Origin: Stenotrophomonas sp. 57
GTDB lineage: Bacteria; Pseudomonadota; Gammaproteobacteria; Xanthomonadales; Xanthomonadaceae
Assembly: GCF_030291075.1 (NCBI RefSeq)
Contig: NZ_CP127407.1
Location: 4,152,001-4,216,000, forward strand
Reading direction: 5' to 3'
Length of the DNA stretch: 64,000 nt
Positions 3,400 through 19,171 of the stretch are shown piece by piece. Both the position numbers and the translations under genes were made by a program. The notes beneath the pieces are model-generated. The model made no database searches. It saw nothing but the letters and a program-made list of their open reading frames with translations, and had not been told where the DNA came from. Each line of letters opens with the position of its first letter. Position 1 is the first letter of the stretch.

Positions 3400-3452
3400 G
3401 CGCTGTCTGCCCTTACACATCCTGATGGATGCCAAAGCATACGGCGGATGCA

Positions 3453-3479
3453 GCAACGCCGGGCAAGGCCCGGCGTTGC
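3453..3479 (-). terminator. Hairpin downstream of the GH109 gene
   Basis: Perfect 12-bp stem GCAACGCCGGGC / GCCCGGCGTTGC with a three-base loop, 14 bases after the stop of the minus-strand GH109 gene. There is no clear T-run on either side, so it could be a bidirectional or weak terminator, or an mRNA-stabilising stem. Confidence 0.5.
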
Positions 3480-3493
3480 CGTTGGTGTGCAGA

Positions 3494-4849
3494 TCAGTAT
3501 CTGCCGTCGAACGCAAAAATCGGCTTGCGCTGCTTCCACGCACCAGCGGTAAAGTCCGGGAACTCCAGCGTCTGGAAACCGTTGGCGATCGACTGCTCGC
3601 TCAGCGGCGTGATCGCACTCCAGGTCACCGCATCGTAGATGTCGATCGGCATCGGCGCCTTGGCCTTCAGCGCTTCAACAAAGGCATGGATGACGAACCA
3701 GTCCATGCCACCGTGGCCGGCGCTGGCGGCGGTGTCGGCATTCTGCTTCCACAGCGGGTGCTCGTATTCGTCCTGGTACTTCTTGAACTCTTCCCACTGG
3801 TGCGGCGGGCTGCGGCCTTCGATGTGGATCGAGTGGTTCACGTCCATCCACAGGCCCTTGGTGCCCTGCACACGGAAGCCCATCGAGTACGGGCGCGGCA
3901 GCGAGGTGTCGTGCTGCAGCAGGATGGTCTCGCCGTTCTCGCAGGCCAGCGTGGTGGTCACAATATCGCCCAGCTTGAACTTCACCTTGGTGCTGGGGTG
4001 GGTGGTGCCGCCGCTCTTGGCCACGGTGTATTCGTGCAGGCCGCGTGCCTTGGTCGCGAAGGCGTTGATGTGGGTGAAGCGGTTGCCACGGTTGATGCCG
4101 GTGTACATCGCGCACGGGCCGATGCCGTGGCTGGGGTACAGCTCGCCGTTGCGCTCCACCGAATGCTCGGTGCGCCAGCGTGCTTCGCTCCAGCCCTTCG
4201 GCCCGAATTCCACGCCGCTGTCGTAGGGCTGGTTCGGGTCGCCGGAATTGAACTTCACGCCGCGCAGGTCGTGCTGGTAGCCGGCCTGCAGGTGTACCAG
4301 TTCGCCGAACAGGCCCTGGCGCACCATCTGCAGCGCCGCCATCACGTCGCGGCGGTAGCAGACATTCTCCAGCAGCATGTACGGGGTGCCGGTGCTCAGC
4401 TGGGTCTTCAGCACGTCCCAGTGGTCCTGCAGGGTGATGCCGGCCACCACTTCGCAGCCCACGGCCACGCCGGCCTGCATCGCGGCAATCGCCATCGGCG
4501 CGTGGTACTCCCACGGCGTGGCGATGATCACGCCATCGATCCCCTTCTGTTCCAGCAGGCGCTTCCACGCATTGGTGTCGCGGTCCTGGCCGTAGGTCTT
4601 CGGGGCCGGCTTGCCGGCCTTGGCCACCATCTCCATGGCACGGCCGAGCATGATCGGTTCGATGTCGCACAGGGCGACCACCTCGACGTCGTCGCGGCGC
4701 ACCAGCTCCTTCAGCAGCACCAGGCCACGCATGCCGGTACCGATCATGGCCAGGCGCACCGTGCGCCCGCGCGCCCATGCCGGGGTCTGCGGCAGCAGGC
4801 TGCTGGCGGCGACAGCGGCACTGGCCGCGATGAATTCCCTACGCTTCAT
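3494..4849 (-). CDS. Tat-exported Gfo/Idh/MocA protein, GH109 alpha-N-acetylgalactosaminidase-like
   Basis: Predicted periplasmic enzyme of about 451 residues. The N-terminus MKRREFIAASAAVAA carries a twin-arginine signal, as expected for an enzyme that folds with its nucleotide cofactor before export. A Rossmann NAD-binding core follows (MIGTGMRG, then VVALCDIEP). Resemblance to family GH109 includes HGIGPCAMY in the middle. GH109 cleaves terminal alpha-GalNAc by an NAD-dependent oxidation/elimination route. It is the last gene of the minus-strand GalNAc arm, after the TonB receptor. A 6-bp GCCGGC hairpin sits in the 65-bp gap between them. The start at 4849 puts the RR motif at residues 3-4; an in-frame ATG at 4858 is only two bases from GGAG. 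Confidence 0.82.
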   Translation of the reverse strand: MKRREFIAASAAVAASSLLPQTPAWARGRTVRLAMIGTGMRGLVLLKELVRRDDVEVVALCDIEPIMLGRAMEMVAKAGKPAPKTYGQDRDTNAWKRLLEQKGIDGVIIATPWEYHAPMAIAAMQAGVAVGCEVVAGITLQDHWDVLKTQLSTGTPYMLLENVCYRRDVMAALQMVRQGLFGELVHLQAGYQHDLRGVKFNSGDPNQPYDSGVEFGPKGWSEARWRTEHSVERNGELYPSHGIGPCAMYTGINRGNRFTHINAFATKARGLHEYTVAKSGGTTHPSTKVKFKLGDIVTTTLACENGETILLQHDTSLPRPYSMGFRVQGTKGLWMDVNHSIHIEGRSPPHQWEEFKKYQDEYEHPLWKQNADTAASAGHGGMDWFVIHAFVEALKAKAPMPIDIYDAVTWSAITPLSEQSIANGFQTLEFPDFTAGAWKQRKPIFAFDGRY

Positions 4850-4914
4850 GGCAAACATCTCTCCTCTTGGCAGCGAGCCGGCCGTAGCCGGCCCGCCGGG
4901 TCACGCAAACGGAA

Positions 4915-7890
4915 TTACTTGAAACGGTAGCCGATGGTCACACTGTAACCACGGCCGAAGATGGTGGCGTAGTCACTGGAGTCACCCAGGAAGCTGTTCG
5001 GATCGTAGAACGGCAGGCGATTGAACAGGTTCTTGACGGTGAAGCTCAGGTTCCAGGCATCATCCGGACGCCAGGTGACGCTCATGTTGGCGGTCCACCA
5101 CGACGGCGCACCATCACACTTGCTCTTCTGCAGGGCCAGGTAGCCGCCGGTGCAGGTTTCCTTGTTGTTGCTTGCCTCATCGACCTGGTCGGTGGCCCAC
5201 TTGGTGCCGCCCACGTAGTTGACGAACATGCTGGTGGTCACCTGCTTGTAGGTCCAGTCGGCATTGAGCGTGGCACGCAGGCGCGGGTTGTTGTAGTAGC
5301 CGACCACGTCGCCGTAGTACCAGCCGTTCTCGGCGTCCATGTAGAAGCGGTTGCGGTTGGCGATGGTGGCGGCCAGACCGATGTTCAGGTTGCCCCAGTC
5401 ACCCAGCGAGAAGCGGCTGCGCGCGTCGATGTCGAAGCCGTCGATCAGCGTCTTGCCACGGTTCTTGTACTGGCCCACCACGCTGGCCACGTTGCCGGCC
5501 GAGTAGCCCGGCAGCACCGACGGGCAGCTCACGCCACTGGCCGGGTCGGCACACATTGCAGCCAGCTGCGCCAGGTTGGCGCGGTCGCTGTCGGTGATCG
5601 GCGAGCGCGACATCGAGATGATGTCTTCCATGCGGCGGTAGTCCGGCGCAACGATTTCATTGTTGCGGTAGATGAACCAGTAGTCGGCCGACACCGACAG
5701 CCAGGTGGCCGGCTCGTAGACGAAGCCGAGGGTGGCGATCTTGGCCTTCTCCGGCTTCAGGTTCTTGTTCGGCTGGGTCATGCGGGCCACGGTGCGGCTG
5801 CAATCGACGTTCAGCAGGTTCTTGCCCAGGTCGACATCGCCCGGACGCTGCGAGCGCAGCAGCAGGTTGGCGATGGCGTTGGTCTCGTTGCAGCGCAGCT
5901 CGTCGCGGTAGCCACCCAGCTGCGCGAACACGCCGCCGTTGCCGGATTCGGCCAGGCTCGGTGCACGGAAACCGGTCGAGTAGGTACCGCGCAGCATCAG
6001 CTGGTCGAAGGCCTGGTACTTGAAGCCGATCTTCGGTGCCACGTTGGCGCTGAAGTTCGGGTACTTGTCCACGCGCACCGCCGCATCCAGTTCCAGCTTG
6101 TCGGTGATCGGCGCCACGGTCTCGGCAAACAGCGCGTAGGTGTTGCGCTTGCCATCGAACCACGAACCACCCTGCTGGGTGATCAGGCCGTTGGCGGCGT
6201 CGGCGTTGCCCGGGGTGTAGAAGGTTTCGCGGCTGGCGTTGAAGCCGAAGGCCGCACGCATCTCACCGGCAGGCAGCTGGAACAGCGGGCCTTCGATCTT
6301 GCCGTCGAGGGTGTGCAGGCGGGTCCACGACTGGATGTCGAAGGTCGGGAACGCTTCGCGGATCAGCGCGGCGTTGGCTTCACTGATCTCGCCGAACTTG
6401 TACGCCGGGTGGTCGGAGATGATGACCCGGCCGGTGCCCGGATCGATCGTGTACGGACCGAAGGCCTTCTCGAAGCCCTTGGTGTTGACGTTGATCGTCT
6501 GGTAGGTGGTGGAGTGGGTACCGGCGCTGGCAAACGCGGTCTCCCAGTTCCAGTCACCGCGGCTGCCACGCGCACCGGCCAGCACGCGGTAGCTCTTGTC
6601 GGTGTTGCGCTGGCCGAAGTAGCTCGGGCCGGCATCCTGCAGCAGGTAGGTCAGGCCGACCACGCCGCCCATCATTGCCTTCATCTGCGCGCTGGCGTGG
6701 TTGTACTCGTTGTTCGGGCCCAGGAACGGGTACAGGAACTGGTTGACGGTGTTGCCGGTGTTGCGCGAGAACCAGCTGGTCGGGTTGCCGGTGGTGGTGC
6801 CGTAGGTGCGCGGCGTACCGCCGTTGGCGCGCAGGTCGATGTCGGTGTAGGTCGCCTCGGCGAAGATCTCGGTGCTGTCACCCACCAGGAAAGTGCCGTT
6901 GAGGTAGGCGGTATTGCGCTCGGACTTGGCACCGGCATCGATCTCGTTGTTCATCCAGGTTTCCCAGACGCAACGCGGGCCGGCCGCTTCACTGGTCAGC
7001 ACGTTCTTGCAGCCCGGCGCAGCTTCCTGCACACGGCGGCCGGTGACCGGATCGAAGGCGAAGTAGCTGCCCGGGTTGAACTCGCCCGGCTTGCTGCCCA
7101 CGCCCAGGCGCAGGTTGTTGAGGTAGTTCGGGTTGTTGACGTAGTACTGGTCGGGGCGCTTGTCGTAGAAGTCGCTCAGCGGAATCGCGTCGCGGCGGTA
7201 CATGTTCACCGCGCCGTAGATGTTGAAGCGGTTTTCGGCCAGGTCACCGAAACCGGCGGTGATGCTGGCCTGGCGCTCGCCGTAGGAGTCGATGCGCGAG
7301 GAGGTGTCGTTGGTGAAGCTGACCTCGGCACCCTGGAAGTTGCGCTTGGTGATCACGTTGATCACGCCGGCCACCGCGTCGGTGCCGTACACCGCCGAGG
7401 CGCCGTCGGTCAGCACTTCCATGCGCTCGATGGCCGCGGCCGGAATCGCATCGATGTTGACGAACTGGGTCTGGAAGCCGGCCGGTGCGCCGTAGTACGA
7501 CAGGCGACGACCGTTCAGCAGCACCAGCGTGCCCTGCGCGCCCAAGCCACGCAGGTTGGCCTGCGAAGCACCATCGGAACCGGTGAACAGCGAACGCGCG
7601 TCCTGCTGCGCTGGACGTGCGGCTGGGAGGTTGTCCAGCACCTGCAGCAACGTGCGCGCACCCATGTTCTGGATGTCCTGCTTGCTGATCACCTGTACCG
7701 GGGAGGCGGTTTCAACGTCGGTGCGGCGGATGTTGGAGCCGGTGACCTCGATGCGGGCAAGGTCGGTGGCCTTGTCCTTGCTCTCATGGGCGAAGGCAGG
7801 AACGGCGACCGACAGCAGCACGCCGGCGATGGCCAGCGACAGCGGAGCGATCGAACGACAGGGGGGGCGGTGGTGGCGGACGGGCAACAT
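4915..7890 (-). CDS. TonB-dependent outer-membrane receptor
   Basis: 991-residue receptor predicted to import glycans or sugars across the outer membrane with TonB energy. A signal peptide (LSLAIAGVLLSVAVPAFA) is followed by a TonB-box-like segment (IEVTGSNIRR), a plug domain (residues about 55-175, with SPVQVISKQDI and ASAVYGTDAVAGVINVI) and a long beta-barrel ending YSVTIGYRFK. The start at 7890 is chosen because AGGAG lies nine bases upstream; the frame opens 17 codons earlier without a site. It lies between the GH31 and GH109 genes on the same strand, so its cargo is probably GalNAc-containing oligosaccharide or free GalNAc. Substrate is inferred. Confidence 0.9.
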   Translation of the reverse strand: MLPVRHHRPPCRSIAPLSLAIAGVLLSVAVPAFAHESKDKATDLARIEVTGSNIRRTDVETASPVQVISKQDIQNMGARTLLQVLDNLPAARPAQQDARSLFTGSDGASQANLRGLGAQGTLVLLNGRRLSYYGAPAGFQTQFVNIDAIPAAAIERMEVLTDGASAVYGTDAVAGVINVITKRNFQGAEVSFTNDTSSRIDSYGERQASITAGFGDLAENRFNIYGAVNMYRRDAIPLSDFYDKRPDQYYVNNPNYLNNLRLGVGSKPGEFNPGSYFAFDPVTGRRVQEAAPGCKNVLTSEAAGPRCVWETWMNNEIDAGAKSERNTAYLNGTFLVGDSTEIFAEATYTDIDLRANGGTPRTYGTTTGNPTSWFSRNTGNTVNQFLYPFLGPNNEYNHASAQMKAMMGGVVGLTYLLQDAGPSYFGQRNTDKSYRVLAGARGSRGDWNWETAFASAGTHSTTYQTINVNTKGFEKAFGPYTIDPGTGRVIISDHPAYKFGEISEANAALIREAFPTFDIQSWTRLHTLDGKIEGPLFQLPAGEMRAAFGFNASRETFYTPGNADAANGLITQQGGSWFDGKRNTYALFAETVAPITDKLELDAAVRVDKYPNFSANVAPKIGFKYQAFDQLMLRGTYSTGFRAPSLAESGNGGVFAQLGGYRDELRCNETNAIANLLLRSQRPGDVDLGKNLLNVDCSRTVARMTQPNKNLKPEKAKIATLGFVYEPATWLSVSADYWFIYRNNEIVAPDYRRMEDIISMSRSPITDSDRANLAQLAAMCADPASGVSCPSVLPGYSAGNVASVVGQYKNRGKTLIDGFDIDARSRFSLGDWGNLNIGLAATIANRNRFYMDAENGWYYGDVVGYYNNPRLRATLNADWTYKQVTTSMFVNYVGGTKWATDQVDEASNNKETCTGGYLALQKSKCDGAPSWWTANMSVTWRPDDAWNLSFTVKNLFNRLPFYDPNSFLGDSSDYATIFGRGYSVTIGYRFK

Positions 7891-8011
7891 CGGGGTTCTC
7901 TCCTGGCAGGGGTGCGGCGCGAATGGTGAATCGGCGGGCAAAACGCTCCCGGGCCACGGCCATGAGGGCCGTAGTCGGAATGGGCGGGGGAGGAGCGGTG
8001 TTACGAGGGGG

Positions 8012-11000
8012 TCATGGGGCGACGATGCTGGCGGAGTCGCCCTCCTGGCCGATCAGCACGGCGTTGGCCCAGTTGGCACAGACCTGGGCGGGTTGGCTGC
8101 CCTGCGCACCCAGCGTGCGCAGGCTCAGGCTGGAAAGGCCACGGATGTCCAGCTCCGGCTTGACCACGCCGGGTGCCTTCACCAGGCCGCTGTCGTACAG
8201 CAGGCGGTTGTCACCCCAGACCTGGAACTGCAGGCCACCGGCGCTGCGGCAGGCATCGTCGATGCCTAGGTCGGCACGCAGCAGGTGCCAGCCGCCCTGC
8301 AGGCGCAGGTCGATGCGGCTGTTGGCGCCGACGCCCAGGCCACGGCGGAACTGCAGGCCGTTCATGCGCATGCCGGCGTCGCCACGGAACGACTGGTCGG
8401 CGCGCACCTGGCTGGCCAGCGCGGCCGGCACCGGCAGCTCGGAGAGATAGCGCTGCCGGGCCGGTCGCTCCGGTTCCTGGTGTTCGAGGATGTGGAAGGT
8501 GGACAGTGCGATCGGGCCGACGTCGCGCGGCTGCAGCGCATCAAAGGCGCGGGCACTGCCCTGTGCGGCCGTGACCATCGGGTCGGTGCTGCTGGCGCCG
8601 TCGCCTTCGGGGTTCTGCACGCTCAGCACGCGGAAGCGCAGCAGGCGGCCGGCATGGGCCGGGAACGCGATGCGCTGCACGCCTTCCTTCAACTGCAGGC
8701 GGCCGCGGGCGATCGGCTCGCCCCACTCGCCATTGCTGTCACCCAGGTACACCTCGTAGTCGCGTACCTGGCCGTGTTTCCAGTTCTTGTCATTGCGCGG
8801 CGCAATGTCGATGCCATCGATCATCCTGCGCTCGCCCAACCCGATCACCCATTCGTGGGCACCGGTGCGCACGGCCTGGTTGCGCACACTGCGGAACCAG
8901 GTGCCGGGGTCATCATCGAAGGCGTTTTCCAGCGCGTGGCCGGGCTCTTCGGCCGGGCGGTTGACCACCAGCAGGCTGTCGGCCGGCAGTTCGCGGCCGA
9001 GCACCGGTGCCGCCGGATAGGCGTCGTCGGCAGCGGCGGCGGCGACCGCGAAGTCCAGCTGCAGCTGCAGCGGCTGGCGGATGTCCTGGCTGGCGGTGCG
9101 CACATGCAGCGTGCCGCGTCGTTCAGCGGCATCGAAGTACCAGCCTTCAGCCGCAGCGTTGAACGCAGCGGCATCAGCCAGCGCCGGCAGCGGGCGGCCG
9201 GCGGCCTGCACCGCACGCGGCGCCTGGCGGCTGAGCACGCGCAGGCTGTAGCGGCGCTGCGGCAGCTGGCCGTTGTACTGGCCCTGCACCGCATCGATCT
9301 GCACCTGCACCGGGCCACTGCCCTGCGCTGGCGCCTGCACGCGGATCACCTGCGTGCTCGACTCGCCCTGCTGGTAGCGGCGCGTGTTGCCATCGTCTTC
9401 GTACAGCGTGTACTGCGACTCGCCCTGCGGGTACAGGTCGAAGGTCACTTCATCGAGCGGCTTCTCACCGTCGAACAGCATCGACGGGTACATCGGCAGG
9501 ATGGCTCCTGCACGCACGAACACCGGCAGCGTGGCCAGGTCCACCTGGCGGTCGAGCTGGCGGCCATCGGCGCCAGCCTGCACACGGCGGCCATCCCAGT
9601 AGTCGATCCATCCACCGGCCGGCAGGTGGATGTCGCGACGCCAGCCACGGCTGGCGGCCTGGCTGCGGTACACCGGCGCTACCAGCAGGTCGCGACCGAG
9701 CAGGAACTGGTACTTGTAGGTTTCATCCTGCGCGTGCGGGTCGCGCGGGTTGTCCCACATCAGGCCACGCACCGGCGGCGCACCGGTCTGCGCGGCCTCG
9801 TGCACCAGCCCGTACATGTACGGGGTCAGGCGCATCTTCAACTTCAGGTAATCGCGGTTGATGCTGCGGTAGGGCTCGTCGTACCACCACGGATGCTTGC
9901 GTGCGTTCGACGACCAGCCGCTCATGCCCATCAGCACCGGGGTGAACGCCTTCCACTGCAGGTCGCGGGTGAAGGTCTCGGCGCTGCCGCCGAAGATCGC
10001 ATCCACATCGCCGCTGGCGTAGGCCATGCCGGACAGGCCCGACCCGACCAGGGTCGGCACGTGCCAGCGGATGTAATCCCAGCTGCTGCTCTGGTCGCCG
10101 GTCCAGGCCACCGCATAGCGCTGGATGCCGGCCCAGCCCATCACCGTCCACAGGAACGGGCGCGAATCGGAATTGTCGAGGATGCCGTTGAACGCCTGGC
10201 GGTTGGCGTCCATCGCGAACTGGTAGCCCTTGCCGGTCCAGGCCACGTCCAGCTTCTGCACGCGGCTGCCGGCCTTGCCGACTTCCCAGGCGATCTTGTC
10301 GACACCGTTCTCGGTCCAAAGGCCGGTGCGGAAGCCGTAACCGGCCAGGCCTTTCACGGTTTCCGGCAGCTGCTTGTAGCCACAGCCATAGCCATCGTTG
10401 GGCAGGATCCAGCCACCGGGCATGTCGTGGGCGCGGTACTGCTTGGCCACGCTGTCGATCACGTCGGGCGTGGTGCCGGTCGGGCCGTCGCTCCAGCCTT
10501 CGGGCACGGTGCCGGGCTTCTTGCTGTTGTCGCCGTCGTTGTAGCAATCGGCGTCGCCGTAGGACAGCGCCCAGCGCGCGACCATGTTCGGGCGGCCGGT
10601 CAGTTGGGTGTAGCGCTCGATCAGTTTCGGCAGATCGGCGCCGACGAAGTAATAGGCATCGAAGCGGTCTTCGCGATGCAGCAGCGTGGCCTGGTCGCTC
10701 TGGCGCAGGTCGTAGCTGCCATCGCTCCAGGTATTGCGCAGCATGCCCCAGCCACGGCTGCTCAGCAGCATCGGCGCCGGGCTGGGGCGGTCGCCCTCTT
10801 CCCAGCCGCCGGAATAGGACACGTCCAGCTCGCGGCCCTTGAACTGGTAGCGGCCGTTCTGCTGGCCACCGCCGAAGTAGCTTTCATCGGCCTGCGAGGA
10901 CAGCACCTGCACGCTCTGCGAGGCATCCAGGTCCAGCGACTGAAGCTCCTGCCACAGGGCGGTCGGCTGGCCGTTGTCCAGGCGCTCCAGGCGCATGCGC

Positions 11001-11371
11001 AGCGGCTGACGCTGTACGTGCAGCACCAGTGCCTCGGTCCGCACGCGGACCTCCTGCGCGTCTTCTTCCAGCTTCGCCTGCACGTTGGCCTTGGGCTGCG
11101 GCAGCACGATCGGTGCAGCCTTGTCGCCGGCACCGGTCAGCGTGCCATTGCGGCCTGCCTGCACGCGGATGATGTCGGCGGCCGGCAGTTCGATGCGGAT
11201 GCGCGCGCCCTTGTCGGTCTGCAGGTCCCAGCCCTGCACGCCGTCGCGGCTGGCGCTGGCGGCAACCGAACGCAGATTGCCGACCGGCTCGGCATGGGCC
11301 GACGTGGACGCCAGCATCAACGCCGGCAACAAGGCCAGCAGCAGCGGCGAGCGACGAACGCAGTTTTCCAC
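8012..11371 (-). CDS. Secreted GH31 family glycosidase with C-terminal discoidin and NPCBM domains (candidate alpha-N-acetylgalactosaminidase)
   Basis: 1119-residue secreted glycoside hydrolase. The order is signal peptide (to ASTSAHA), N-terminal beta domain, GH31 catalytic barrel (about 220-650), a proximal C domain, a discoidin-like domain (about 800-935, with ENAFDDDPGTWF) and a terminal NPCBM-like domain (about 975-1119). Asp375 in KLDVAW fits the nucleophile and Asp426 in WTGDQSSSW the acid/base. The usual GH31 WxDMNE motif is absent. NPCBM modules and the GalNAc gene context suggest the GH31 branch containing alpha-N-acetylgalactosaminidases, an inference. The GTG start at 11371 has GGGAG five bases upstream; the open frame continues beyond it with poor codon use. 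It heads the minus-strand arm. Confidence 0.85.
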   Translation of the reverse strand: MENCVRRSPLLLALLPALMLASTSAHAEPVGNLRSVAASASRDGVQGWDLQTDKGARIRIELPAADIIRVQAGRNGTLTGAGDKAAPIVLPQPKANVQAKLEEDAQEVRVRTEALVLHVQRQPLRMRLERLDNGQPTALWQELQSLDLDASQSVQVLSSQADESYFGGGQQNGRYQFKGRELDVSYSGGWEEGDRPSPAPMLLSSRGWGMLRNTWSDGSYDLRQSDQATLLHREDRFDAYYFVGADLPKLIERYTQLTGRPNMVARWALSYGDADCYNDGDNSKKPGTVPEGWSDGPTGTTPDVIDSVAKQYRAHDMPGGWILPNDGYGCGYKQLPETVKGLAGYGFRTGLWTENGVDKIAWEVGKAGSRVQKLDVAWTGKGYQFAMDANRQAFNGILDNSDSRPFLWTVMGWAGIQRYAVAWTGDQSSSWDYIRWHVPTLVGSGLSGMAYASGDVDAIFGGSAETFTRDLQWKAFTPVLMGMSGWSSNARKHPWWYDEPYRSINRDYLKLKMRLTPYMYGLVHEAAQTGAPPVRGLMWDNPRDPHAQDETYKYQFLLGRDLLVAPVYRSQAASRGWRRDIHLPAGGWIDYWDGRRVQAGADGRQLDRQVDLATLPVFVRAGAILPMYPSMLFDGEKPLDEVTFDLYPQGESQYTLYEDDGNTRRYQQGESSTQVIRVQAPAQGSGPVQVQIDAVQGQYNGQLPQRRYSLRVLSRQAPRAVQAAGRPLPALADAAAFNAAAEGWYFDAAERRGTLHVRTASQDIRQPLQLQLDFAVAAAAADDAYPAAPVLGRELPADSLLVVNRPAEEPGHALENAFDDDPGTWFRSVRNQAVRTGAHEWVIGLGERRMIDGIDIAPRNDKNWKHGQVRDYEVYLGDSNGEWGEPIARGRLQLKEGVQRIAFPAHAGRLLRFRVLSVQNPEGDGASSTDPMVTAAQGSARAFDALQPRDVGPIALSTFHILEHQEPERPARQRYLSELPVPAALASQVRADQSFRGDAGMRMNGLQFRRGLGVGANSRIDLRLQGGWHLLRADLGIDDACRSAGGLQFQVWGDNRLLYDSGLVKAPGVVKPELDIRGLSSLSLRTLGAQGSQPAQVCANWANAVLIGQEGDSASIVAP

Positions 11372-11402
11372 GCGGACTCCCAACCCGTTCACCGGGCGTT
11401 TC

Positions 11403-11654
11403 GAAAGCGATTGGGCCGACTCTAGGGCAGCGATTCGAAAGATGTCAACAAATTGAAAGGAAAAAGGAAGATATATTCTGTTGAAACGAAAGTTTGTGCG
11501 TCGCAGTACTTTGCGTAATCGCTTGCAGCTGCCTGTTAAGCATTGTGCGATACGGCATCCGGACGTTTCTTTCGTTTCCATGGACGGGCAATGCATGGGA
11601 AGTCGCACACCATATTTTCTTTCTTTTTGCTTTCGGTATTTGACATTTCGAAAG
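11403..11654. promoter_or_regulatory. Candidate AgaR operator cluster, divergent aga control region
   Basis: The 322-bp gap between the divergent GH31 and agaS genes is AT-rich for this genome. It holds five GAAAG (11403, 11437, 11455, 11488, 11650) and three CTTTC pentamers (11569, 11619, 11630), that is, eight copies of one motif in both orientations. CTTTC is the core reported for AgaR, the DeoR-type repressor of GalNAc genes in Proteobacteria; an agaR-like gene lies in this locus. Several copies form palindromes (TTTCGAAAG). The region contains no other gene. Confidence 0.7.
11420..11448 (-). promoter_or_regulatory. Candidate sigma-70 promoter for the GH31-TonB receptor-GH109 arm
   Basis: On the minus strand TTGACA (11448-11443), a 17-base spacer and CTAGAG (11425-11420). 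One CTTTC box lies inside the spacer and another just upstream of the -35 element, the geometry expected of repression. Position is about 50 bases before the GTG start. Confidence 0.5.
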
Positions 11655-11693
11655 AAAACACAGATGGTGCGCTGGCCCAACTGGAACCTCCGA

Positions 11694-12848
11694 ATGGACG
11701 TCACCCTGCTTTCCGATGTGTCCGCCTGGCAGCGCCTGGGCGGAGCCGATACCGCTACCGAAATCGCCCAGCAGCCTGCGCTGTGGGACGCCCTCGCCCA
11801 AGACCTGGCGCGTGCCCGCGACCGCCTGCAGGCCTTCCTCGGCGACAGCCTCAATGACCCGAGCCTGCGCGTGCTGTTCACCGGCGCCGGCAGCTCCGGC
11901 TTCATCGCCGAAATGGTGGCCGACGCGATCAACGCGCAGTGGCCGGCCGAGGTGCGCGTGGTGCACACCACCAGCCTGCTGACCCACCCGGCGCTGTACC
12001 TGCAGCGCGACCGCCCCACCCTGCTGGTCTCGTTCGGCCGCAGCGGTTCCAGCCCGGAAAGCGTGGCCGCGGTGGACCGCGTGCGCAGCGATGTGGATGA
12101 CGCGCGCTTCCTCGACATCACCTGCAACGCCGACGGCGAACTGGCCCGTCGTGGCGCCGGCCGCGCCGATACCTGCACCCTGCTGATGCCGTCGGCCAGC
12201 TGCGATCGCGCCTTCGCCATGACCAGCAGCCTGACCTGCATGCTGCTGGCCGCACTGACCGTGTTCGATCGTTCGCCGTGGGATGCGCGCGTGGCGCGCC
12301 TGAAGCAGATCGCCGCGCTGGCCCGCGAAGGCCTGGCGCAGTGGGATGCACCGGTGGCGGAGCTGGCGCAGCGCCCGTTCAACCGCATCATCTACCTCGG
12401 CAGCGGCCCGCTGGAAGCGCTGGCGCGCGAGTGCGCGCTGAAGGTGCTGGAGCTGACCGCCGGCCGCGTGCTGGCGTTGGCCAATACGCCACTGGGCTTC
12501 CGCCATGGCCCCAAGTCGACGCTGGATGGCAACACCCTGGTGGTGGTGCTGCGCAGCGTGCAGCCGCTGGCGCGCCGCTACGAACAGGACCTGCTGGAAG
12601 AACTGCGCCGCGATGGCGTGGCCGGCCAGGTGCTGGCGATCGGCCCGCATTCGGATATCGGTGCCGAAGACGAGTACACGCTCACCGTACCGGCACTGGA
12701 CGACCCGTGGCTGGCCCCGGTGTGGCTGGGCTTTGCGCAGCTGTTCGCGCTGCAGCGCTCGGCCGCGCTCGGCCTGACCCCGGACAACCCGTTCCCGGAC
12801 GGCACCGTCAACCGCGTCGTCAAGGGCGTCACCATCCACCATGGCTGA
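11694..12848 (+). CDS. agaS: Galactosamine-6-phosphate deaminase/isomerase AgaS (SIS domain)
   Basis: 384-residue cytoplasmic enzyme with two SIS sugar-isomerase domains, the same length as E. coli AgaS. It is predicted to convert galactosamine-6-P to tagatose-6-P plus ammonia. Visible motifs are GAGSSGFIAEM (about residue 63), SFGRSGSSPESV (about 112) and HGPKSTL near residue 270, all typical of the AgaS/GlmS-like SIS fold. The frame is open to 11481, and ATGs occur at 11664 and 11694. I chose 11694 from family length and because TTGACA at 11640 would place transcription initiation between the two. Its stop overlaps the kinase start by eight bases. Confidence 0.85.
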   Translation: MDVTLLSDVSAWQRLGGADTATEIAQQPALWDALAQDLARARDRLQAFLGDSLNDPSLRVLFTGAGSSGFIAEMVADAINAQWPAEVRVVHTTSLLTHPALYLQRDRPTLLVSFGRSGSSPESVAAVDRVRSDVDDARFLDITCNADGELARRGAGRADTCTLLMPSASCDRAFAMTSSLTCMLLAALTVFDRSPWDARVARLKQIAALAREGLAQWDAPVAELAQRPFNRIIYLGSGPLEALARECALKVLELTAGRVLALANTPLGFRHGPKSTLDGNTLVVVLRSVQPLARRYEQDLLEELRRDGVAGQVLAIGPHSDIGAEDEYTLTVPALDDPWLAPVWLGFAQLFALQRSAALGLTPDNPFPDGTVNRVVKGVTIHHG

Positions 12849-13779
12849 GCTGATCGCCCACGCCTGCTACGGCATCGACATCGGCGGCACCAAGATCGAG
12901 CTGGTGGCGTGCGATGCGGCGACGCAGGTCACCTGGCGCCGCCGGGTCAGCACGCCGCAGGGCGACTACGACGGTTTCCTGCAGGCGGTGGTGACCCTGG
13001 TGGCCGAGGCCGATGCCGCGCTGGGTCGCAGCGATGCGGCCATCGGTATCGCCCTGCCCGGTGTGCGTGATCGTCGCAGCGGCCGCCAGCTGAGTGCGAA
13101 TGTGCCGGCATTGACCGGCCACAGCGTGGCCGCCGACCTGCAGGCTCGCCTGCAGCGTCCGCTGCACTTCGGCAATGACCTGCAGTGCTTCGCCCTGTCC
13201 GAGGCACGTGGCGGGGCCGCCGCCGGTTACCCCAGCATGTTCGGCGCCATCCTCGGCACCGGCGCTGGCGGTGGCTTCTGCCTGCAGGGCCGCCTGCTGT
13301 CCGGCTTCAACGGGCTGGCGGGCGAATGGGGCCATTGGAGCGTGCCTGGCCACCTGCTGCAGCGCCACGGCCTGCCACTGATCGACTGCGCCTGCGGCCT
13401 GCAGGGCTGCGTGGAGCGCTACGTGTCCGGCAGCGGGCTGGCAATGATCGAGCGTCACCTCGGTGGCAGCGCCAACGATGCCAGCGCAGTGATCGCACTG
13501 GCCGAAACCGGTGATGCACGTGCGCGCAAGGCGCTGGACATCCATCGCGACCTGCTTGGCCACAGCCTGGCCGCGCTGGTGCTGGCGCTGGACCCGCACG
13601 TGATCGTGCTCGGCGGCGGCCTGTCGCAGTACGCGCCGCTGTACCAGCAGCTGCCGGCCGCGATTTCCGCGCATCTGTTCAACGGCGTGCAGGTACCGCC
13701 GATCGTGCCGCCGCGTTTCGGCGATGCCGGCGGCGCTCGCGGTGCCGCCCTGCTCGCCTGCCAACCCTCGTTTTCCTGA
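12841..13779 (+). CDS. agaK: ROK family sugar kinase, probable N-acetylgalactosamine kinase
   Basis: 312-residue ROK kinase predicted to make GalNAc-6-P from imported GalNAc. The ATP phosphate-binding loop GIDIGGTKIEL is at residues 11-21. The catalytic-base region (FGND), a second glycine-rich segment (GTGAGGGF) and the ROK zinc signature (CACGLQGC after GLPLID) follow. ROK kinases also include NagK and glucokinases, so GalNAc specificity is inferred from its position between agaS and the agaZ-like gene. It overlaps agaS by eight bases, which implies translational coupling. Confidence 0.8.
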   Translation: MAELIAHACYGIDIGGTKIELVACDAATQVTWRRRVSTPQGDYDGFLQAVVTLVAEADAALGRSDAAIGIALPGVRDRRSGRQLSANVPALTGHSVAADLQARLQRPLHFGNDLQCFALSEARGGAAAGYPSMFGAILGTGAGGGFCLQGRLLSGFNGLAGEWGHWSVPGHLLQRHGLPLIDCACGLQGCVERYVSGSGLAMIERHLGGSANDASAVIALAETGDARARKALDIHRDLLGHSLAALVLALDPHVIVLGGGLSQYAPLYQQLPAAISAHLFNGVQVPPIVPPRFGDAGGARGAALLACQPSFS

Positions 13780-13796
13780 TCGACCGGAGCCTGACC

Positions 13797-15131
13797 ATGT
13801 CCCCGTTGCAGACCCTGCTTGCCTCCCACCGCGCCGGTGCCAATGTCGGCCTGTACAGCGTCTGCTGCAGCAACGAACAGGTGCTGCGCGCGGCCATGCA
13901 CGTGGCACTGGCGCACGGCACCATGCTGCTGATCGAGGCCACCTCCAACCAGGTCGATCAGTTCGGCGGCTACACCGGCATGACCCCACCACAGTACCGC
14001 GACTACGTCGGCGTGCTGGCCGATGAGGAAGGCTTCCCGCGCGAGCGGCTGGTTCTGGGCGGTGATCACCTCGGCCCGAATGCCTGGCAGAAGCGCCCGG
14101 CCGCCGAGGCGATGAGCCACGCGCGCGTGCTGATCGAAGCCTACGTCGCCGCCGGTTTCCACAAGATCCACCTCGATTGCAGCATGTCCTGCGCCGATGA
14201 CCCGGTGCCGCTGCCCGATGCCGTCGTCGCGGCGCGTTCGGCGGAACTGGCCGAGATCGCCGAGCGTACCGCTGCGGATCATGGCCTGCCGCCGCCGGTC
14301 TACGTGATCGGTACCGAAGTGCCGATTCCCGGCGGTGAAGCCTCGCTGGCCGAAGGCCTACAGGTGACCACGCCCGCTGCTGCGGCGCAGACCCTGGCCA
14401 TCCACCAGCAGGCGTTCGATACACCGCAACTGCGCGATGCGTGGCAGCGCGTGATCGCCATGGTGGTGCAGCCGGGCGTGGACTTCGACCACAGCAGCGT
14501 GCACGAGTACGACGCAGCGGCCGCGGGGGCGCTGGCCGATTTCCTCGAACAGCAGCCGCGCATCGTGTTCGAAGCGCATTCCACCGATTACCAGCGAGAA
14601 AACGGCCTGCACGCGCTAGTGCGCGACCACTTCGCCATCCTCAAAGTCGGCCCGGCCGCGACCTTCGCCTACCGCGAGGCGCTGTTCGCGCTGGCCGCAA
14701 TCGAAGCCGAACTGCTGCCCGCAGCGCAGTGCTCGCGCCTGCCGCAGGTGCTGGACGAGGTGATGGTGGCGCAGCCGAAGTACTGGCAGTCCTACTACCA
14801 GGGCGATGAGGCAGCGCTGCGCCTGCTGCGCCGCTATTCCTTCAGCGACCGCTGCCGCTACTACTGGGGCGAGCCGGCGCTGGTACAGGCGGTGCAGACC
14901 CTGTTCGCCAACCTGGAACAACACGCGCCGCCGCTGGTACTGCTCAGCCAGTACCTGCCCGAGCAGTACCGCGCCGTGCGCGAGGGCACCCTGGCCAATA
15001 CGCCTGCCGCGCTGGCACAGCATCGCGTCGGCCTGTGCCTGGACGAGTACGCCCGTGCATGCAGCGCCAACCAGGCCGGAACCCGCCCGCAGAACGCAGG
15101 CTCGGCTGCTGCCGCTGCTGCGAACGGCTAA
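13797..15131 (+). CDS. agaZ: D-tagatose-1,6-bisphosphate aldolase non-catalytic subunit family (AgaZ/KbaZ/GatZ)
   Basis: 444-residue TIM-barrel protein of the GatZ/KbaZ/AgaZ family. In E. coli these stabilise the catalytic class II aldolase; a tagatose-6-P kinase role has also been proposed for AgaZ. Recognisable segments include LIEATSNQVDQFGGYTGM near residue 45, LGGDHLGPNAW near 83 and IHLDCSMSCADDP near 122. It starts 17 bases after the kinase. No catalytic aldolase (KbaY/GatY-like) or phosphofructokinase-like gene is in the locus, so the pathway's last steps are either carried out by this protein in an unusual way or by genes elsewhere. Confidence 0.85.
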   Translation: MSPLQTLLASHRAGANVGLYSVCCSNEQVLRAAMHVALAHGTMLLIEATSNQVDQFGGYTGMTPPQYRDYVGVLADEEGFPRERLVLGGDHLGPNAWQKRPAAEAMSHARVLIEAYVAAGFHKIHLDCSMSCADDPVPLPDAVVAARSAELAEIAERTAADHGLPPPVYVIGTEVPIPGGEASLAEGLQVTTPAAAAQTLAIHQQAFDTPQLRDAWQRVIAMVVQPGVDFDHSSVHEYDAAAAGALADFLEQQPRIVFEAHSTDYQRENGLHALVRDHFAILKVGPAATFAYREALFALAAIEAELLPAAQCSRLPQVLDEVMVAQPKYWQSYYQGDEAALRLLRRYSFSDRCRYYWGEPALVQAVQTLFANLEQHAPPLVLLSQYLPEQYRAVREGTLANTPAALAQHRVGLCLDEYARACSANQAGTRPQNAGSAAAAAANG

Positions 15132-15158
15132 TCTCTACCTTTCCCCGCGACACCGAGA

Positions 15159-15941
15159 ATGGCCATGCGCAACACCCGCTCCCGCCGGCAACAGATCCTG
15201 CAGCTGCTGATCGAGCACGGCTCGGTGCAGGTGGCCGATCTGGTCGAGCGCTTCGGCGTGTCGGCGGTGACCATCCGTGCCGACCTGACCCACTTCGAAT
15301 CGCAGGGCCTGGCCAACCGTACCCACGGTGGCGCCACGCTGGTGCGCACGCCGCCGCAGGAACAGGACATCCACGAAAAGGACGCACTGAACCTGCCGCT
15401 GAAGGAATCGATCGGCGCGTGTGCCGCGCGCCTGGTGCGGCCCGGTGACAACATCATCATCGACTCCGGCTCGACCACGATGACCCTGGCCCGCCACCTG
15501 CGCACGCAGCGCGACGTGACGGTGATGACGAACGGGCTGAACATCGCCTGGGAACTGGCCAACGCGCCCGGCATCAACGTGCTGCTGACCGGTGGACTGC
15601 TGCGCCAGCAGTCGCTGTCGCTGCAGGGCAGCCAGGCCGAAGCCAGCCTCAACTCCTACAGCTTCGATACCCTGTTCCTGGGCGTGGACGGCCTGGACCT
15701 GCAGTTCGGGCTGACCACGCACGACGAAGCCGAAGCCCGCCTCAACCACCGCATGGTCGAGCGCGCACGCCGCATCGTGGTGCTGACTGACGCCTCCAAG
15801 TTCGGGCGCGTCAGCCTGCACCGCATCGCACTGCTGGATCAGATCCACACCATCATCACCGATGCCGGCATCGACGACGCCTCGCGCGAGGGCCTGCAGC
15901 GGCTGGGCATTGAAGTGATCATCGCCGAGCCCGCCGCATGA
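15159..15941 (+). CDS. agaR: DeoR family transcriptional repressor, AgaR-like
   Basis: 260-residue DeoR-type regulator. The N-terminal winged helix-turn-helix covers residues about 8-60 (QQILQLLIEHGSVQVADL, then VTIRADLTHFE). The C-terminal DeoRC sugar-phosphate sensor domain includes DSGSTTMTLARHL near residue 103 and FLGVDGLD. It is predicted to bind the CTTTC-box cluster between the two arms and to be released by a GalNAc pathway phosphosugar. An ATG two codons later (15165) is an alternative start. Its stop overlaps the agaA start in an ATGA, so repressor and deacetylase are co-translated. Confidence 0.85.
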   Translation: MAMRNTRSRRQQILQLLIEHGSVQVADLVERFGVSAVTIRADLTHFESQGLANRTHGGATLVRTPPQEQDIHEKDALNLPLKESIGACAARLVRPGDNIIIDSGSTTMTLARHLRTQRDVTVMTNGLNIAWELANAPGINVLLTGGLLRQQSLSLQGSQAEASLNSYSFDTLFLGVDGLDLQFGLTTHDEAEARLNHRMVERARRIVVLTDASKFGRVSLHRIALLDQIHTIITDAGIDDASREGLQRLGIEVIIAEPAA

Positions 15942-17053
15942 CCGACACCCGCTCCCTGCATGGCCGCATCCTCACGCCGCTGGGTTGGCGGCGTGGCCAG
16001 GTCCACTTCGATTCCCACGTGCGCCAGCTGCAGGTGGATGACCACAGCGGCGCTGGCGATCTGCAATTGCCGGTGATCCTGCCCGGCTTCATCGACCTGC
16101 ATGTGCACGGTGCGGCGGGCGTGGACCTGATGCAGGGCGGTGACGTGGCGCGCACCATCGCCCGCACCCATCTGCGCTTCGGCACCACTACGCTGCTGGC
16201 GACCACCATGACCGCCGGCCTGGACGAGATCGAGCATGCGCTGCAGGGCGTGGCCGCCACCATGGCGGCGCCCGATGCCGATGCGGCCTGCATTGCCGGT
16301 GTGCATCTGGAAGGACCGTTCATCAGCCCGCAGCGGCTGGGCGCACAGCCCAACCGTACCATCGAAGCAACACTGGCGCTGGTGCAGCAGCTGCACGCGC
16401 TGGCACCGATCCGGGTGATGACGCTGGCGCCGGAGATCGGCGAGCACACCGCGCTGATTCCCGCGCTTTCCGCGATGGGCATCCGCGTGCAGCTCGGCCA
16501 CAGCGCTGGCACTTACGAGGACGGTGTGGCCGCCCTACAAGCCGGCGCTTCCGGTTTCACCCACCTGTTCAACGGCATGACCGGTGTCGACCACTATCGA
16601 CCGGGCATCGCCGCGGCGGCCCTGGCGCACGCGCAGTACGCCGAGATCATTCCCGACCTGCAGCACATCCACCCCGGCGTGATCCGGCTGGCCGCGCGCG
16701 CGATCCCGCGCCTGTACGCGGTGACCGACGCCACCGCCGCCACTGGCATGCCCGATGGCGAGTACGCGCTGGGCGAACAGCGCGTGCACAAGTGCGGCGG
16801 CTGCGTGCGCCTGGCAACCGGTTCGCTGGCGGGTAGTGCTCTGACCATGGACCAGGCGCTGCGCAATCTGGTGCAGGTGGGCCTGGAGCTGGCCGATGCA
16901 TCGCAACGTGTTTCCACCTTCCCGGCCGACTACCTGGGCCTGGGCGATCGCGGCCGCATCGCGCCCGACGCCCGCGCCGACCTGGTGGTGCTGGATGCCG
17001 AGCTGCGCCTGCAGCAGGTGGTTGCCGGCGGGCATGTGATTGATCTGAACTGA
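15938..17053 (+). CDS. agaA: N-acetylgalactosamine-6-phosphate deacetylase (NagA/AgaA family)
   Basis: 371-residue amidohydrolase predicted to deacetylate GalNAc-6-P to galactosamine-6-P and acetate. Family hallmarks are DLHVHG (about residue 52), the metal-ligand motif HLEGPF (about 125), LGHSAGT (about 187), HLFNGM (about 208) and Asp264 in VTDATAATGM, equivalent to the catalytic Asp of NagA. NagA and AgaA are close relatives, so the galacto-specificity is inferred from the agaS/agaK/agaZ neighbours. It is translationally coupled to agaR. Confidence 0.85.
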   Translation: MTDTRSLHGRILTPLGWRRGQVHFDSHVRQLQVDDHSGAGDLQLPVILPGFIDLHVHGAAGVDLMQGGDVARTIARTHLRFGTTTLLATTMTAGLDEIEHALQGVAATMAAPDADAACIAGVHLEGPFISPQRLGAQPNRTIEATLALVQQLHALAPIRVMTLAPEIGEHTALIPALSAMGIRVQLGHSAGTYEDGVAALQAGASGFTHLFNGMTGVDHYRPGIAAAALAHAQYAEIIPDLQHIHPGVIRLAARAIPRLYAVTDATAATGMPDGEYALGEQRVHKCGGCVRLATGSLAGSALTMDQALRNLVQVGLELADASQRVSTFPADYLGLGDRGRIAPDARADLVVLDAELRLQQVVAGGHVIDLN

Positions 17054-17090
17054 CACACGCGATGCGGCCCGGACGCCGCGCGGGCTCCCT

Positions 17091-17184
17091 GTAGAGCCGA
17101 GCCATGCTCGGCTCACCGCGCGAAGCGCGGCATGGGGGACCTCGATATCGGAACGGAAAGCAGCCGAGCATGGCTCGGCTCTAC
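17091..17184. repeat. Inverted pair of GTAG-headed repeats (SMAG dimer)
   Basis: GTAGAGCCGAGCCATGCTCG at 17091 is answered by its inverse complement ending in CTAC at 17184. The two monomers could form one long hairpin. It lies between agaA and the permease gene and could partly uncouple their expression. Confidence 0.75.
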
Positions 17185-17207
17185 AGAAAGCACTCTGCGA
17201 CGAACCG

Positions 17208-17231
17208 CCGCCGGGCGTGGCCCGGCGCTAC
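17208..17231. repeat. Single GTAG-headed repeat, inverted
   Basis: Read on the minus strand this is GTAGCGCCGGGCCACGCCCG, a stem-loop with the GTAG head at 17231-17228. It ends 14 bases before the permease start codon. Confidence 0.65.
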
Positions 17232-17245
17232 CACAGGAACTGCCG

Positions 17246-19033
17246 ATGTCCGCAAGCACCGCTCCGCGCTGGCCCGTACGCTACCTGCTCTTCATCGGCG
17301 GCCTGGGCGGCCTGCTGTACGGCATCGACATCGGCATCATCGCCGGTGCCCTGCCCTACCTTGAAGCGACCGCCAGCCACGCCTGGCAGCTCAGCAGCCA
17401 GCAGCTCGGCTTCGTGGTGGCAGCGGTGCTGCTGGGCAGCGTGTTGTCCTCGCTGTTCGCCGGCATGATCGCCGACCTGATCGGCCGCCGCGGCGCGATG
17501 CTGCTGGCCGGCCTGCTGTTCACCGCCTCGATTCCGATCATGGCACTGGCCTCCGGCTACACGCCGCTGCTGCTGGGACGCCTGCTGCAGGGCATCAGTG
17601 GCGGTTTGATCGGCGTCGTGATTCCGCTGTACCTGGCCGAAGTGCTCAGCCCCGAACGACGCGGGCGAGGCGCGGCCATGTTCCAGCTGCTGCTGACCGT
17701 TGGCCTGGTGCTGGCAGCCCTGATCGGCCTGTACCACGCCCATGCCGTGGATGCCGCCGCCGAGGCCGTGCGCTCGCTGCCGTTCGCGGAGCAGGCGCAG
17801 GAACTGTTCACGGTGAAGGACCACGCCTGGCGCACCATCTTCTGGACCTGCCTGGCGCCAGGACTGCTGTTCTGCGCCGGCATCTTCTGGCTGTCCGAAT
17901 CGCCACGCTGGCTGGTGCGCCGCGGCCGCATCGACGAAGCGCGCCGCAGCCTGCAGCGCGTCCTTCCCGCCGCAGAGATCGAGCCCACGCTGGCCCAGAT
18001 CCAGGCCCCGGAATCGAGCAGCAGCGACGGCAAGCGGGATCCGCTGCTCAGCCGCCGCTACGTGGTGCCGTTCCTGCTGGCCTGCGTGGTGCTGGCCTGC
18101 ACCCAGGCCACCGGCATCAATTCGGTGCTGGCCTACGCAGTCAACATCCTCAACCAGGCCGGTCTGTCCGGCTCGGTGGCCAACGGCGCCGACGTAGCGA
18201 TCAAGCTGCTCAACGCGGTGATGACCGTGGTCGCGCTGCTGCTGGTCGACCGCAAGGGCCGCAAGTTCCTGTTGATGCTGGGCAGCGGCGGTATCTGCGT
18301 GGCCCTGCTGGCCGCCGCCACGCTGTTCTTCCAGGCCGAGCGCGGCCGCGCCGATGTGCAGCCGCAGTTGCAGGCGGCGGTCAGCCGCGATGGCCTGCAG
18401 CTGGTGCTGGATGACGCACAGTGGCAGCGCCTCGGCGCAGGCATCGACAGCGAAGGCCGGCCGATGCAGCTGACCGTGTCGTATGCCTACGGTGACTTCA
18501 CCAATGTGCGCGCCCTGCGCAGCGACAACCTGACCGATCGCGAGCTGCGCATCGAGCGCGCCGGCACCGTGCAGCCGGACAGCGTGATCGGTGCGTTCTT
18601 CCGCAAGCTGCACCTCAACCCGTTCGCCGACCCGGCCAGCGCCGAGCAGGCGCCGCTGCGCATCGAACAGGCCCGCATCGGGCCGGTGCCGCCGCCCGCA
18701 CACGGCTGGGCGGTGGCCACCTGCATCCTGGTGTTCGTCGCGTTCTTCGCCGTCGGGCCCGGCGTGTGCGTGTGGCTGGCATTGTCTGAGCTGATGCCGA
18801 ACCGCATCCGCTCCAACGGCATGAGCATCGCGCTGCTGATCAACCAGTTCGTCTCAACCACCATCGCCGCGATCTTCCTGCCCACGGTGGGCCACTACGG
18901 CTACGCCAGCATGTTCGTGTTCTGGGCGGCGTGCACCTTCGTGTTCTTCCTGGTGGCCGCGTTGTGGCTGCCGGAAACCAAGGGCAAGTCGCTGGAAGAG
19001 ATCGAGGCACGGTTCGCGGGAAGGCGGAGCTGA
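17246..19033 (+). CDS. MFS sugar-porter permease with a periplasmic insertion
   Basis: 595-residue major facilitator of the sugar-porter type, longer than the usual 450-500. N-terminal signature elements are GGLLYGIDIGIIAGALPYL, DLIGRRG, and PLYLAEVLSPERRGRGA. In the second half are SESPRWLVRRG, DRKGRK and LPETKGKSLEEIE at the end. Residues about 365-485 form a hydrophilic insertion between helices 9 and 10, a loop predicted to face the periplasm. The start at 17246 has AGGA upstream. Position at the end of the GalNAc arm suggests it carries GalNAc or galactosamine across the inner membrane; this is inferred. Confidence 0.85.
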   Translation: MSASTAPRWPVRYLLFIGGLGGLLYGIDIGIIAGALPYLEATASHAWQLSSQQLGFVVAAVLLGSVLSSLFAGMIADLIGRRGAMLLAGLLFTASIPIMALASGYTPLLLGRLLQGISGGLIGVVIPLYLAEVLSPERRGRGAAMFQLLLTVGLVLAALIGLYHAHAVDAAAEAVRSLPFAEQAQELFTVKDHAWRTIFWTCLAPGLLFCAGIFWLSESPRWLVRRGRIDEARRSLQRVLPAAEIEPTLAQIQAPESSSSDGKRDPLLSRRYVVPFLLACVVLACTQATGINSVLAYAVNILNQAGLSGSVANGADVAIKLLNAVMTVVALLLVDRKGRKFLLMLGSGGICVALLAAATLFFQAERGRADVQPQLQAAVSRDGLQLVLDDAQWQRLGAGIDSEGRPMQLTVSYAYGDFTNVRALRSDNLTDRELRIERAGTVQPDSVIGAFFRKLHLNPFADPASAEQAPLRIEQARIGPVPPPAHGWAVATCILVFVAFFAVGPGVCVWLALSELMPNRIRSNGMSIALLINQFVSTTIAAIFLPTVGHYGYASMFVFWAACTFVFFLVAALWLPETKGKSLEEIEARFAGRRS

Positions 19034-19171
19034 CGGCACCGGTTCCTGGCGTCGGCCATGCCCTCACATGACATGCCAACCGTGCGCGCCTGACGACCGG
19101 GTGTGGGGTATCGATGGGATGTTGCCTGCCGACGAGGTGTGGCCTACCGATAGGCATGGCCTGCCGACTGG

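Follow-up and report, generated by a model that had tools for sequence, protein, structure and literature searches.

A divergent aga locus of the Stenotrophomonas maltophilia group predicted to salvage N-acetylgalactosamine and to end, without an aldolase, at fructose-6-phosphate

The described systems closest to the locus reported here come from Shewanella, Bacteroides thetaiotaomicron and Escherichia coli. Our subject is a divergent nine-gene aga locus, proposed to salvage N-acetylgalactosamine (GalNAc), at positions 3494–19033 of a 64,000 nt stretch of Stenotrophomonas sp. 57 (contig NZ_CP127407.1, 4,152,001 to 4,216,000); this whole stretch is called the window. The source genome is a single contig of 4.44 Mb, and the closest relatives fetched belong to the Stenotrophomonas maltophilia group. 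The Shewanella Aga pathway (agaP, ompAga, agaAII, agaK, agaS, agaO) likewise works without a phosphotransferase system (PTS) and combines an outer-membrane transporter, permease, kinase, deacetylase and AgaS; a table row limited to novel assignments names no glycoside hydrolase family 31 (GH31) enzyme (PMC2996990), whereas the window locus has one. In B. thetaiotaomicron, the polysaccharide utilization locus (PUL) BT4240-50 together with BT3169-GH31 includes an O-glycopeptidase and acts on mucin O-glycoprotein, and its GH109 and GH31 alpha-N-acetylgalactosaminidases, major facilitator superfamily (MFS) transporter, GalNAc kinase and outer-membrane import resemble the parts found here (PMC11992087). 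It differs in placing GH31 outside the PUL and in its aminoglycoside-phosphotransferase-type kinase, SusC/SusD import and M60 peptidase (PMC11992087), whereas at the window locus a lone TonB receptor, a ROK kinase and a deacetylase–deaminase–AgaZ route stand together, with no peptidase in the window. The E. coli aga/kba system shares AgaR, AgaS and AgaZ (KbaZ) homologues, 43–56% identical, and the same CTTTC-type elements, but uses PTS uptake and the KbaY aldolase, neither of which is in the window locus; the KbaY family was not found in the genome. EfNag31A of Enterococcus is the best solved relative of the window GH31 and its catalytic aspartates align, whereas the window GH31 gene is joined to GalNAc catabolism, a TonB receptor and GH109.

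All nine genes named in a preliminary description of the window were confirmed by reading frames and domains, with their order and strands (Table 1). The minus arm encodes GH31, the TonB receptor and a GH109 protein with a twin-arginine translocation (Tat)-type signal, and the plus arm AgaS, the ROK kinase, AgaZ, AgaR, AgaA and a sugar porter. Domain and family matches support the GalNAc route proposed earlier, which looks complete from the outer membrane through to the cytoplasm. We consider it likely that the locus is an AgaR-controlled salvage system for alpha-linked GalNAc, most likely from mucin-type O-glycopeptides, in which AgaZ ends the pathway at fructose-6-phosphate without an aldolase. 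In this scheme, where activities, substrates, directions of transport and regulation are all predictions, the TonB receptor would carry GalNAc-bearing fragments into the periplasm, GH31 (retaining) and GH109 (dependent on nicotinamide adenine dinucleotide, NAD) would release alpha-GalNAc, and the MFS porter would move it into the cytoplasm. The ROK kinase would convert GalNAc to GalNAc-6-phosphate, AgaA would strip the acetate, AgaS would turn galactosamine-6-phosphate into tagatose-6-phosphate and ammonia, and AgaZ would epimerize tagatose-6-phosphate at C4 to fructose-6-phosphate. AgaR, acting at the shared spacer, would repress both arms until a GalNAc-derived inducer appeared.

The end of the pathway depends on AgaZ, which is annotated as a helper of a class II aldolase. 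AgaZ matched TIGR02810 at 605.7 bits (cut-off 568.8) and the Pfam GatZ_KbaZ-like family (E 1.7e-186), the only family that it matched in Pfam and NCBIfam scans, and is 56% identical to E. coli KbaZ. Neither PF01116 (class II aldolase, KbaY family) nor PF01791 (LacD-type aldolase), which we take to be the two tagatose-bisphosphate aldolase families, had a match in the source genome, whilst 11 and 13, respectively, of 14 controls gave matches. In a sample of the genus, AgaZ (PF08013) was present in 83 of 91 genomes and PF01116 in none. In one of the 83 (G181, C3:798709-799963), AgaZ is broken in two and contains a stop codon; the assembly is 85% complete, and the gene may be a pseudogene or the break a sequencing error. 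In the family sample, PF08013 was found in 31 of 149 genomes and PF01116 exceeded its cut-off in three, none of them with AgaZ; two of the 31 AgaZ carriers have sub-threshold PF01116 fragments (20–22 bits, ~70 residues). We also compared 80 related loci, the best of 197 GH31 relatives, which were picked by GH31, include many close kin and are neither independent nor random. E. coli KbaY matched none of the 80 and E. coli KbaZ matched 77; for Oxalobacteraceae, this comparison covers loci rather than whole genomes. A hidden aldolase partner for AgaZ was rejected as a candidate on the genome result for PF01116 and PF01791 and the KbaY result for the loci, PF00274 not having been searched.

For E. 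coli GatZ and KbaZ, a C4 epimerase activity that interconverts fructose-6-phosphate and tagatose-6-phosphate has been reported, and a model-based active site of GatZ comprises C20, E44, D87, H88, E171, H257 and K279 as zinc ligands, base and neighbours (PMC11907403). All seven residues are kept in the window AgaZ, in 77/77 loci aligned and in KbaZ. Because AgaZ is so common in the genus sample where PF01116 was not found, because GatZ and KbaZ are reported epimerases, and because the seven residues are kept, AgaZ probably works without an aldolase, epimerizing tagatose-6-phosphate, and the pathway would end at fructose-6-phosphate. The epimerase reaction itself is already known; the new point inferred here is that these AgaZ carriers rely on it to catabolize GalNAc. 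The preliminary description had listed AgaZ without comment; the gene is present as listed, but its aldolase partner was found neither in the genome nor in the 91 genus genomes, and the end of the pathway is corrected here.

By Pfam, the GH31 protein contains the GH31 barrel and Gal_mutarotas_2, DUF5110, F5/8C and NPCBM domains. Amongst solved GH31 enzymes it scored highest with the alpha-N-acetylgalactosaminidase EfNag31A (361.6 bits; the runner-up reached 172.2), and its catalytic part alone gave 238.4 against 134.4 bits. D375 aligns with the residue mutated (to Ala or Asn) in 7f7q and 7f7r, and D426 with the Asp of WTGDQ, presumably the GH31 acid/base; both are kept in 79/79 relatives whose alignment spans 90% of the protein, and the remaining one of the 80 is cut short. 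GH31 is predicted to be an alpha-N-acetylgalactosaminidase, and an alpha-glucosidase or alpha-xylosidase was ruled out by the scores and the catalytic residues. GH109 contains a Rossmann domain (36.7 bits, cut-off 24) and Glyco_hydro_109_C (271.4 bits, cut-off 27; E 3.7e-81), and its best match in the PDB was 2ixa at 491 bits. Its E164, Y194, Y241 and H244, kept in 66/66 relatives aligned, correspond to E149, Y179, Y225 and H228 of 2ixa, which we take to be active-site residues. Tat export suits an enzyme that binds NAD before leaving the cytoplasm, as GH109 would. These scores and residues bear out the preliminary claim of two unrelated predicted alpha-N-acetylgalactosaminidases.

Since the B. 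thetaiotaomicron enzymes differ in substrates, the GH109 reportedly acting on desialylated mucin, Tn antigen and blood group A and the GH31 on the first of these but not the other two (PMC11992087), the window pair could, by analogy, complement each other and not merely duplicate a function. The characterized GH31 alpha-N-acetylgalactosaminidases of Bacteroides and Enterococcus are described as lacking blood-group-A activity (PMC11992087). Of the glycan targets suggested beforehand, blood-group-A-like structures consequently become less likely for GH31, whilst mucin-type glycans gain support from the relatives, as discussed below.

The locus resembles a PUL in function but not in build: the TonB receptor scored 32.7 bits against the SusC model (cut-off 368.25), and no SusD was found among the nine genes of the locus with Pfam or NCBIfam. 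The porter matched TIGR00879 at 269.2 bits (cut-off 237.8). Its presumed ninth transmembrane helix is followed by a conserved insert of ~120 residues, present in 12 aligned relatives. The insert is predicted to fold into a small domain of mixed helices and strands (predicted local distance difference test score of the model, 72.2) that, from the presumed topology, would lie in the periplasm and might bind sugar.

The two arms diverge from a 292 bp spacer that is rich in CTTTC/GAAAG elements, located at 11403, 11437, 11455, 11488, 11569, 11619, 11630 and 11650. Eight elements were observed against 1.04 expected, a number reached by 0/2000 Markov sequences, and although the 64 kb hold 45 copies in all, the spacer is the densest stretch of its length in the window. 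We chose the element on the basis of the AgaR literature: Leyn et al. 2012 reportedly gave a CTTTC motif for AgaR, and the E. coli gaps analysed here support it, with 6 and 7 copies in the agaR-kbaZ and agaS upstream gaps, respectively (1.06 and 1.89 expected), and none in two control gaps. AgaR itself matched NF040755 at 330.4 bits (cut-off 260) and is 52% identical to E. coli AgaR. Amongst the related loci, 77 of 80 were scorable (up to 500 bases upstream of AgaS); 75 had at least four copies and two (L064, L073) had three each, the mean was 6.44 copies against 0.34 at the locus-wide rate, and 69/77 spacers reached p < 0.01 against their own Markov sequences. A triple-GAAAG pattern, used to look for further AgaR sites, had three matches in the whole genome, two of which overlap in the window spacer and one of which lies inside a reading frame at 1319352; its reversed-pattern control was uninformative, as GAAAG reads the same backwards. 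The single promoter-like match in 3300–19300 lies before GH31 across one element, with 1.6 expected by chance and only its position in its support. The AgaR-type elements in the shared spacer are consistent with control of both arms by AgaR.

The arrangement is conserved. AgaR-AgaZ-ROK-AgaS lie in this order, divergent from GH31, in all 76 of the fetched loci that hold these four genes, and because of this agreement the gene order is not due to chance. All nine genes are present in 57/80 loci, some of the other 23 being cut by the end of a contig or of the fetched stretch. The locus is nearly genus-wide and also occurs in other Lysobacterales and in Oxalobacteraceae; carriers amongst the GH31 relatives include Lysobacter, Pseudoxanthomonas, Duganella, Massilia, Janthinobacterium and others. 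These five are soil and water genera. Given this spread, the locus is not an airway-specific trait, and the earlier remark that it is notable in an airway pathogen is weak.

The relatives also bear on the substrate. Proteins related to DUF3472 occur in 26/80 related loci, none titled Stenotrophomonas (L034, L040, L043, L044, L047, L066-L075, L077, L080-L082, L084-L087 and L089-L091). They are related to HC7, a Tn/T mucinase of Bacillus cereus K8 (a profile of 10 copies matched 8pmu with E 1.3e-9), and have its domain in common; at the position of Glu200, the residue that was mutated in HC7, a glutamate stands in 22/22 alignable copies, four of the 26 not being alignable there. Of five copies scanned with Pfam, three begin with a DUF5077 N-domain and the other two contain a ricin-B lectin domain. 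Many copies are accompanied by an Oar-like second TonB receptor. Because these 26 loci hold a protein related to a mucinase, we take them as pointing to mucin-type O-glycopeptides as the food. The preliminary interpretation, partly supported overall, was mostly right, with its pathway end corrected and its substrate better founded, albeit by inference.

Several observations weigh against this model. We found no activity, growth or expression data for the locus, and amongst titles and the beginnings of abstracts no paper on GalNAc or mucin use by Stenotrophomonas. In 11/80 loci no AgaA was found, and in 19/80 no porter; one locus is cut there by a contig or fetched-stretch end for both genes (L073) and four for the porter (L066, L067, L080, L082), and the remaining absences look like true differences between loci. 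The element does not reach p < 0.01 in 8/77 spacers. The O-glycopeptide argument is borrowed from relatives, as 21 of the 26 DUF3472 loci are Oxalobacteraceae, against 5 of the 54 other loci, and the structure that comes closest to DUF3472, 4qhw, bears the label of a putative sugar hydrolase rather than that of a peptidase. The window has no DUF3472 gene, and none was found in the source genome, where 0/14 controls gave matches and absence is not proven. The genome also has one PFK-family and eight PfkB-family genes, so that phosphorylation of tagatose-6-phosphate is possible; its PFK carries a GGNDS motif, which we take to indicate pyrophosphate dependence. On these kinases, the pathway might instead end classically: PFK or a PfkB kinase would phosphorylate tagatose-6-phosphate and a housekeeping class I aldolase would cleave the bisphosphate, leaving AgaZ as a relic, as a chaperone with another client or as a kinase. 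The kinase role was proposed in older literature, and a review still gives AgaZ as a proposed tagatose-6-phosphate kinase (PMC12118421). We regard this ending as unlikely. A relic would not be expected to keep the proposed active-site residues in all loci aligned, AgaZ matched the GatZ_KbaZ-like family and no other, and its E. coli homologue KbaZ is a reported epimerase (PMC11907403). That no aldolase of PF01116 or PF01791 was found in the genome also argues against it, in a search that did not cover the class I family (PF00274).

The food, too, might be different: a GalNAc-rich polysaccharide such as fungal galactosaminogalactan, bacterial Pel, another biofilm matrix polymer or lipopolysaccharide, with the exo-enzymes of the locus finishing oligomers made by others. 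Several carriers belong to genera of soil bacteria. Such polymers have dedicated endo-enzymes in GH114, GH135, GH166 and GH191 (PMC12054363), and soil biofilms that include Stenotrophomonas rhizophila have a matrix stained by GalNAc-binding lectins, in work that is not about GalNAc use (PMC11985002). However, GH114 was unmatched in the source genome, where only 2/14 controls gave matches and GH135, GH166 and GH191 were not searched; the recurrent extra gene of the relatives is related to a mucinase and not to any of these four families; and the GH31 enzymes of B. caccae and B. thetaiotaomicron, whose distance to the window GH31 was not measured, are reported to act on the core O-GalNAc of glycoproteins (PMC11992087). 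On this evidence a polysaccharide diet seems doubtful. A general amino-sugar system, serving N-acetylglucosamine (GlcNAc) or galactosamine as much as GalNAc, appears very unlikely, although specificity for GalNAc over GlcNAc rests on context because neither AgaS nor AgaA reaches its NCBIfam cut-off and the kinase passes none. AgaS scored 406 bits against TIGR02815 (cut-off 529.2; E 1.4e-121), AgaA scored 224.1 against TIGR00221 (NagA; cut-off 225.65), 1.5 bits below, and the kinase (Pfam ROK, E 2.9e-64) is closest to a GlcNAc kinase model, so that the best models for kinase and deacetylase are those of the GlcNAc side, both under cut-off. Against this, AgaS, AgaZ and AgaR match galactosamine-side families, AgaS having AgaS-type structures (3odp, 3c3j, 3i0z) as its best PDB matches and 43% identity to E. 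coli AgaS, and both linked glycosidases match alpha-N-acetylgalactosaminidases best.

Returning to the salvage of O-glycopeptide GalNAc through AgaZ, we lean slightly towards a broader version of it, in which Lysobacteraceae carriers of AgaZ, and perhaps Oxalobacteraceae sharing the locus, would have a GalNAc route without tagatose-1,6-bisphosphate. AgaZ alone would lead to fructose-6-phosphate, and the route would be wired by AgaR to a two-glycosidase O-glycopeptide arm, joined in many relatives by a DUF3472 mucinase: a SusD-free, non-Bacteroidota counterpart of the Bacteroides mucin GalNAc system. If this is true, then in the members of this family that carry AgaZ (31/149 genomes sampled) the protein would be neither a kinase nor the non-catalytic subunit of an aldolase, contrary to standard annotation, and their GalNAc catabolism would join glycolysis at fructose-6-phosphate. 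It would also suggest a dedicated O-glycan harvesting locus in Pseudomonadota, including an opportunistic pathogen group. The uncharacterized DUF3472 proteins are placed beside GalNAc catabolism, making their proposed mucinase role testable. None of the parts is of a new kind, but neither the final step predicted here nor the probable food was obvious from the annotation.

Table 1. Features of the aga locus, in window coordinates
Feature	Position	Strand	Remarks
GH109 alpha-N-acetylgalactosaminidase-like	3494..4858	-	NAD-dependent family; Tat-type signal KRREFI by eye; predicted periplasmic
TonB-dependent outer-membrane receptor	4915..7890	-	Pfam Plug and TonB_dep_Rec_b-barrel; present in 70/80 related loci
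GH31 alpha-N-acetylgalactosaminidase-like	8012..11371	-	F5/8C and NPCBM domains; Sec-type signal by eye; nucleophile D375, presumed acid/base D426
Divergent control region	11372..11663	.	8 CTTTC/GAAAG elements
Sigma-70-like promoter TTGACA-18-TAGAGT	11419..11448	-	before minus arm; overlaps GAAAG element at 11437
AgaS, galactosamine-6-phosphate deaminase/isomerase-like	11664..12848	+	SIS domain
ROK-family sugar kinase, proposed GalNAc 6-kinase (AgaK role)	12841..13779	+	Pfam ROK
AgaZ (GatZ/KbaZ-like), proposed stand-alone tagatose-6-phosphate 4-epimerase	13797..15131	+	TIGR02810
AgaR, DeoR-family repressor	15159..15941	+	NF040755
AgaA/NagA-type amidohydrolase, proposed GalNAc-6-phosphate deacetylase	15938..17053	+	TIGR00221; Pfam Amidohydro_1
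MFS sugar porter, proposed GalNAc permease	17246..19033	+	TIGR00879; Pfam Sugar_tr

The gene starts in Table 1 were in part chosen by comparison. The GH31 frame is open to 12391, but relatives align over 1119 residues from the GTG at 11371, its likely start; the likely start of AgaS is the ATG at 11664. The TonB receptor probably starts at ATG 7890 and not at TTG 7941, to which its frame is open, and the porter probably at ATG 17246, since 9/12 aligned relatives begin at residues 37–49 of the long frame. The plus arm has an operon-like spacing, with agaS overlapping the kinase gene, agaR overlapping agaA, and 17 and 27 bases separating agaZ from its two neighbours. The gap between agaA and the porter gene is 192 bases long and contains GTAG-type palindromic repeats (17091–17182), similar to others at 40473–40535; they resemble the repetitive extragenic palindromic elements of S. 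maltophilia.

Some related loci differ in other ways. The GH31 proteins of the closest relatives are 97–98% identical to that of the window. A Stenotrophomonas-like locus in a record titled Bacillus subtilis SK7B5 (L051) is probably mislabelled; its AgaA and GH109 are 93% and 92% identical to those of the window, and most other genes 70–86%. In Rudaea (L065, 16572-22257), GH31 and the receptor stand beside a second, distant aga-like set (AgaZ 52%, AgaS 35%, AgaR 43%), which adds a PfkB kinase and an Amidohydro_2 protein and represents a different version of the pathway. Finally, L062 encodes a GH35 beta-galactosidase (19022-20938) a few kb downstream of GH31, and L050 has a frame at a similar place (20278-22161); the GH35 enzyme of L062 could expose core GalNAc by taking off galactose.

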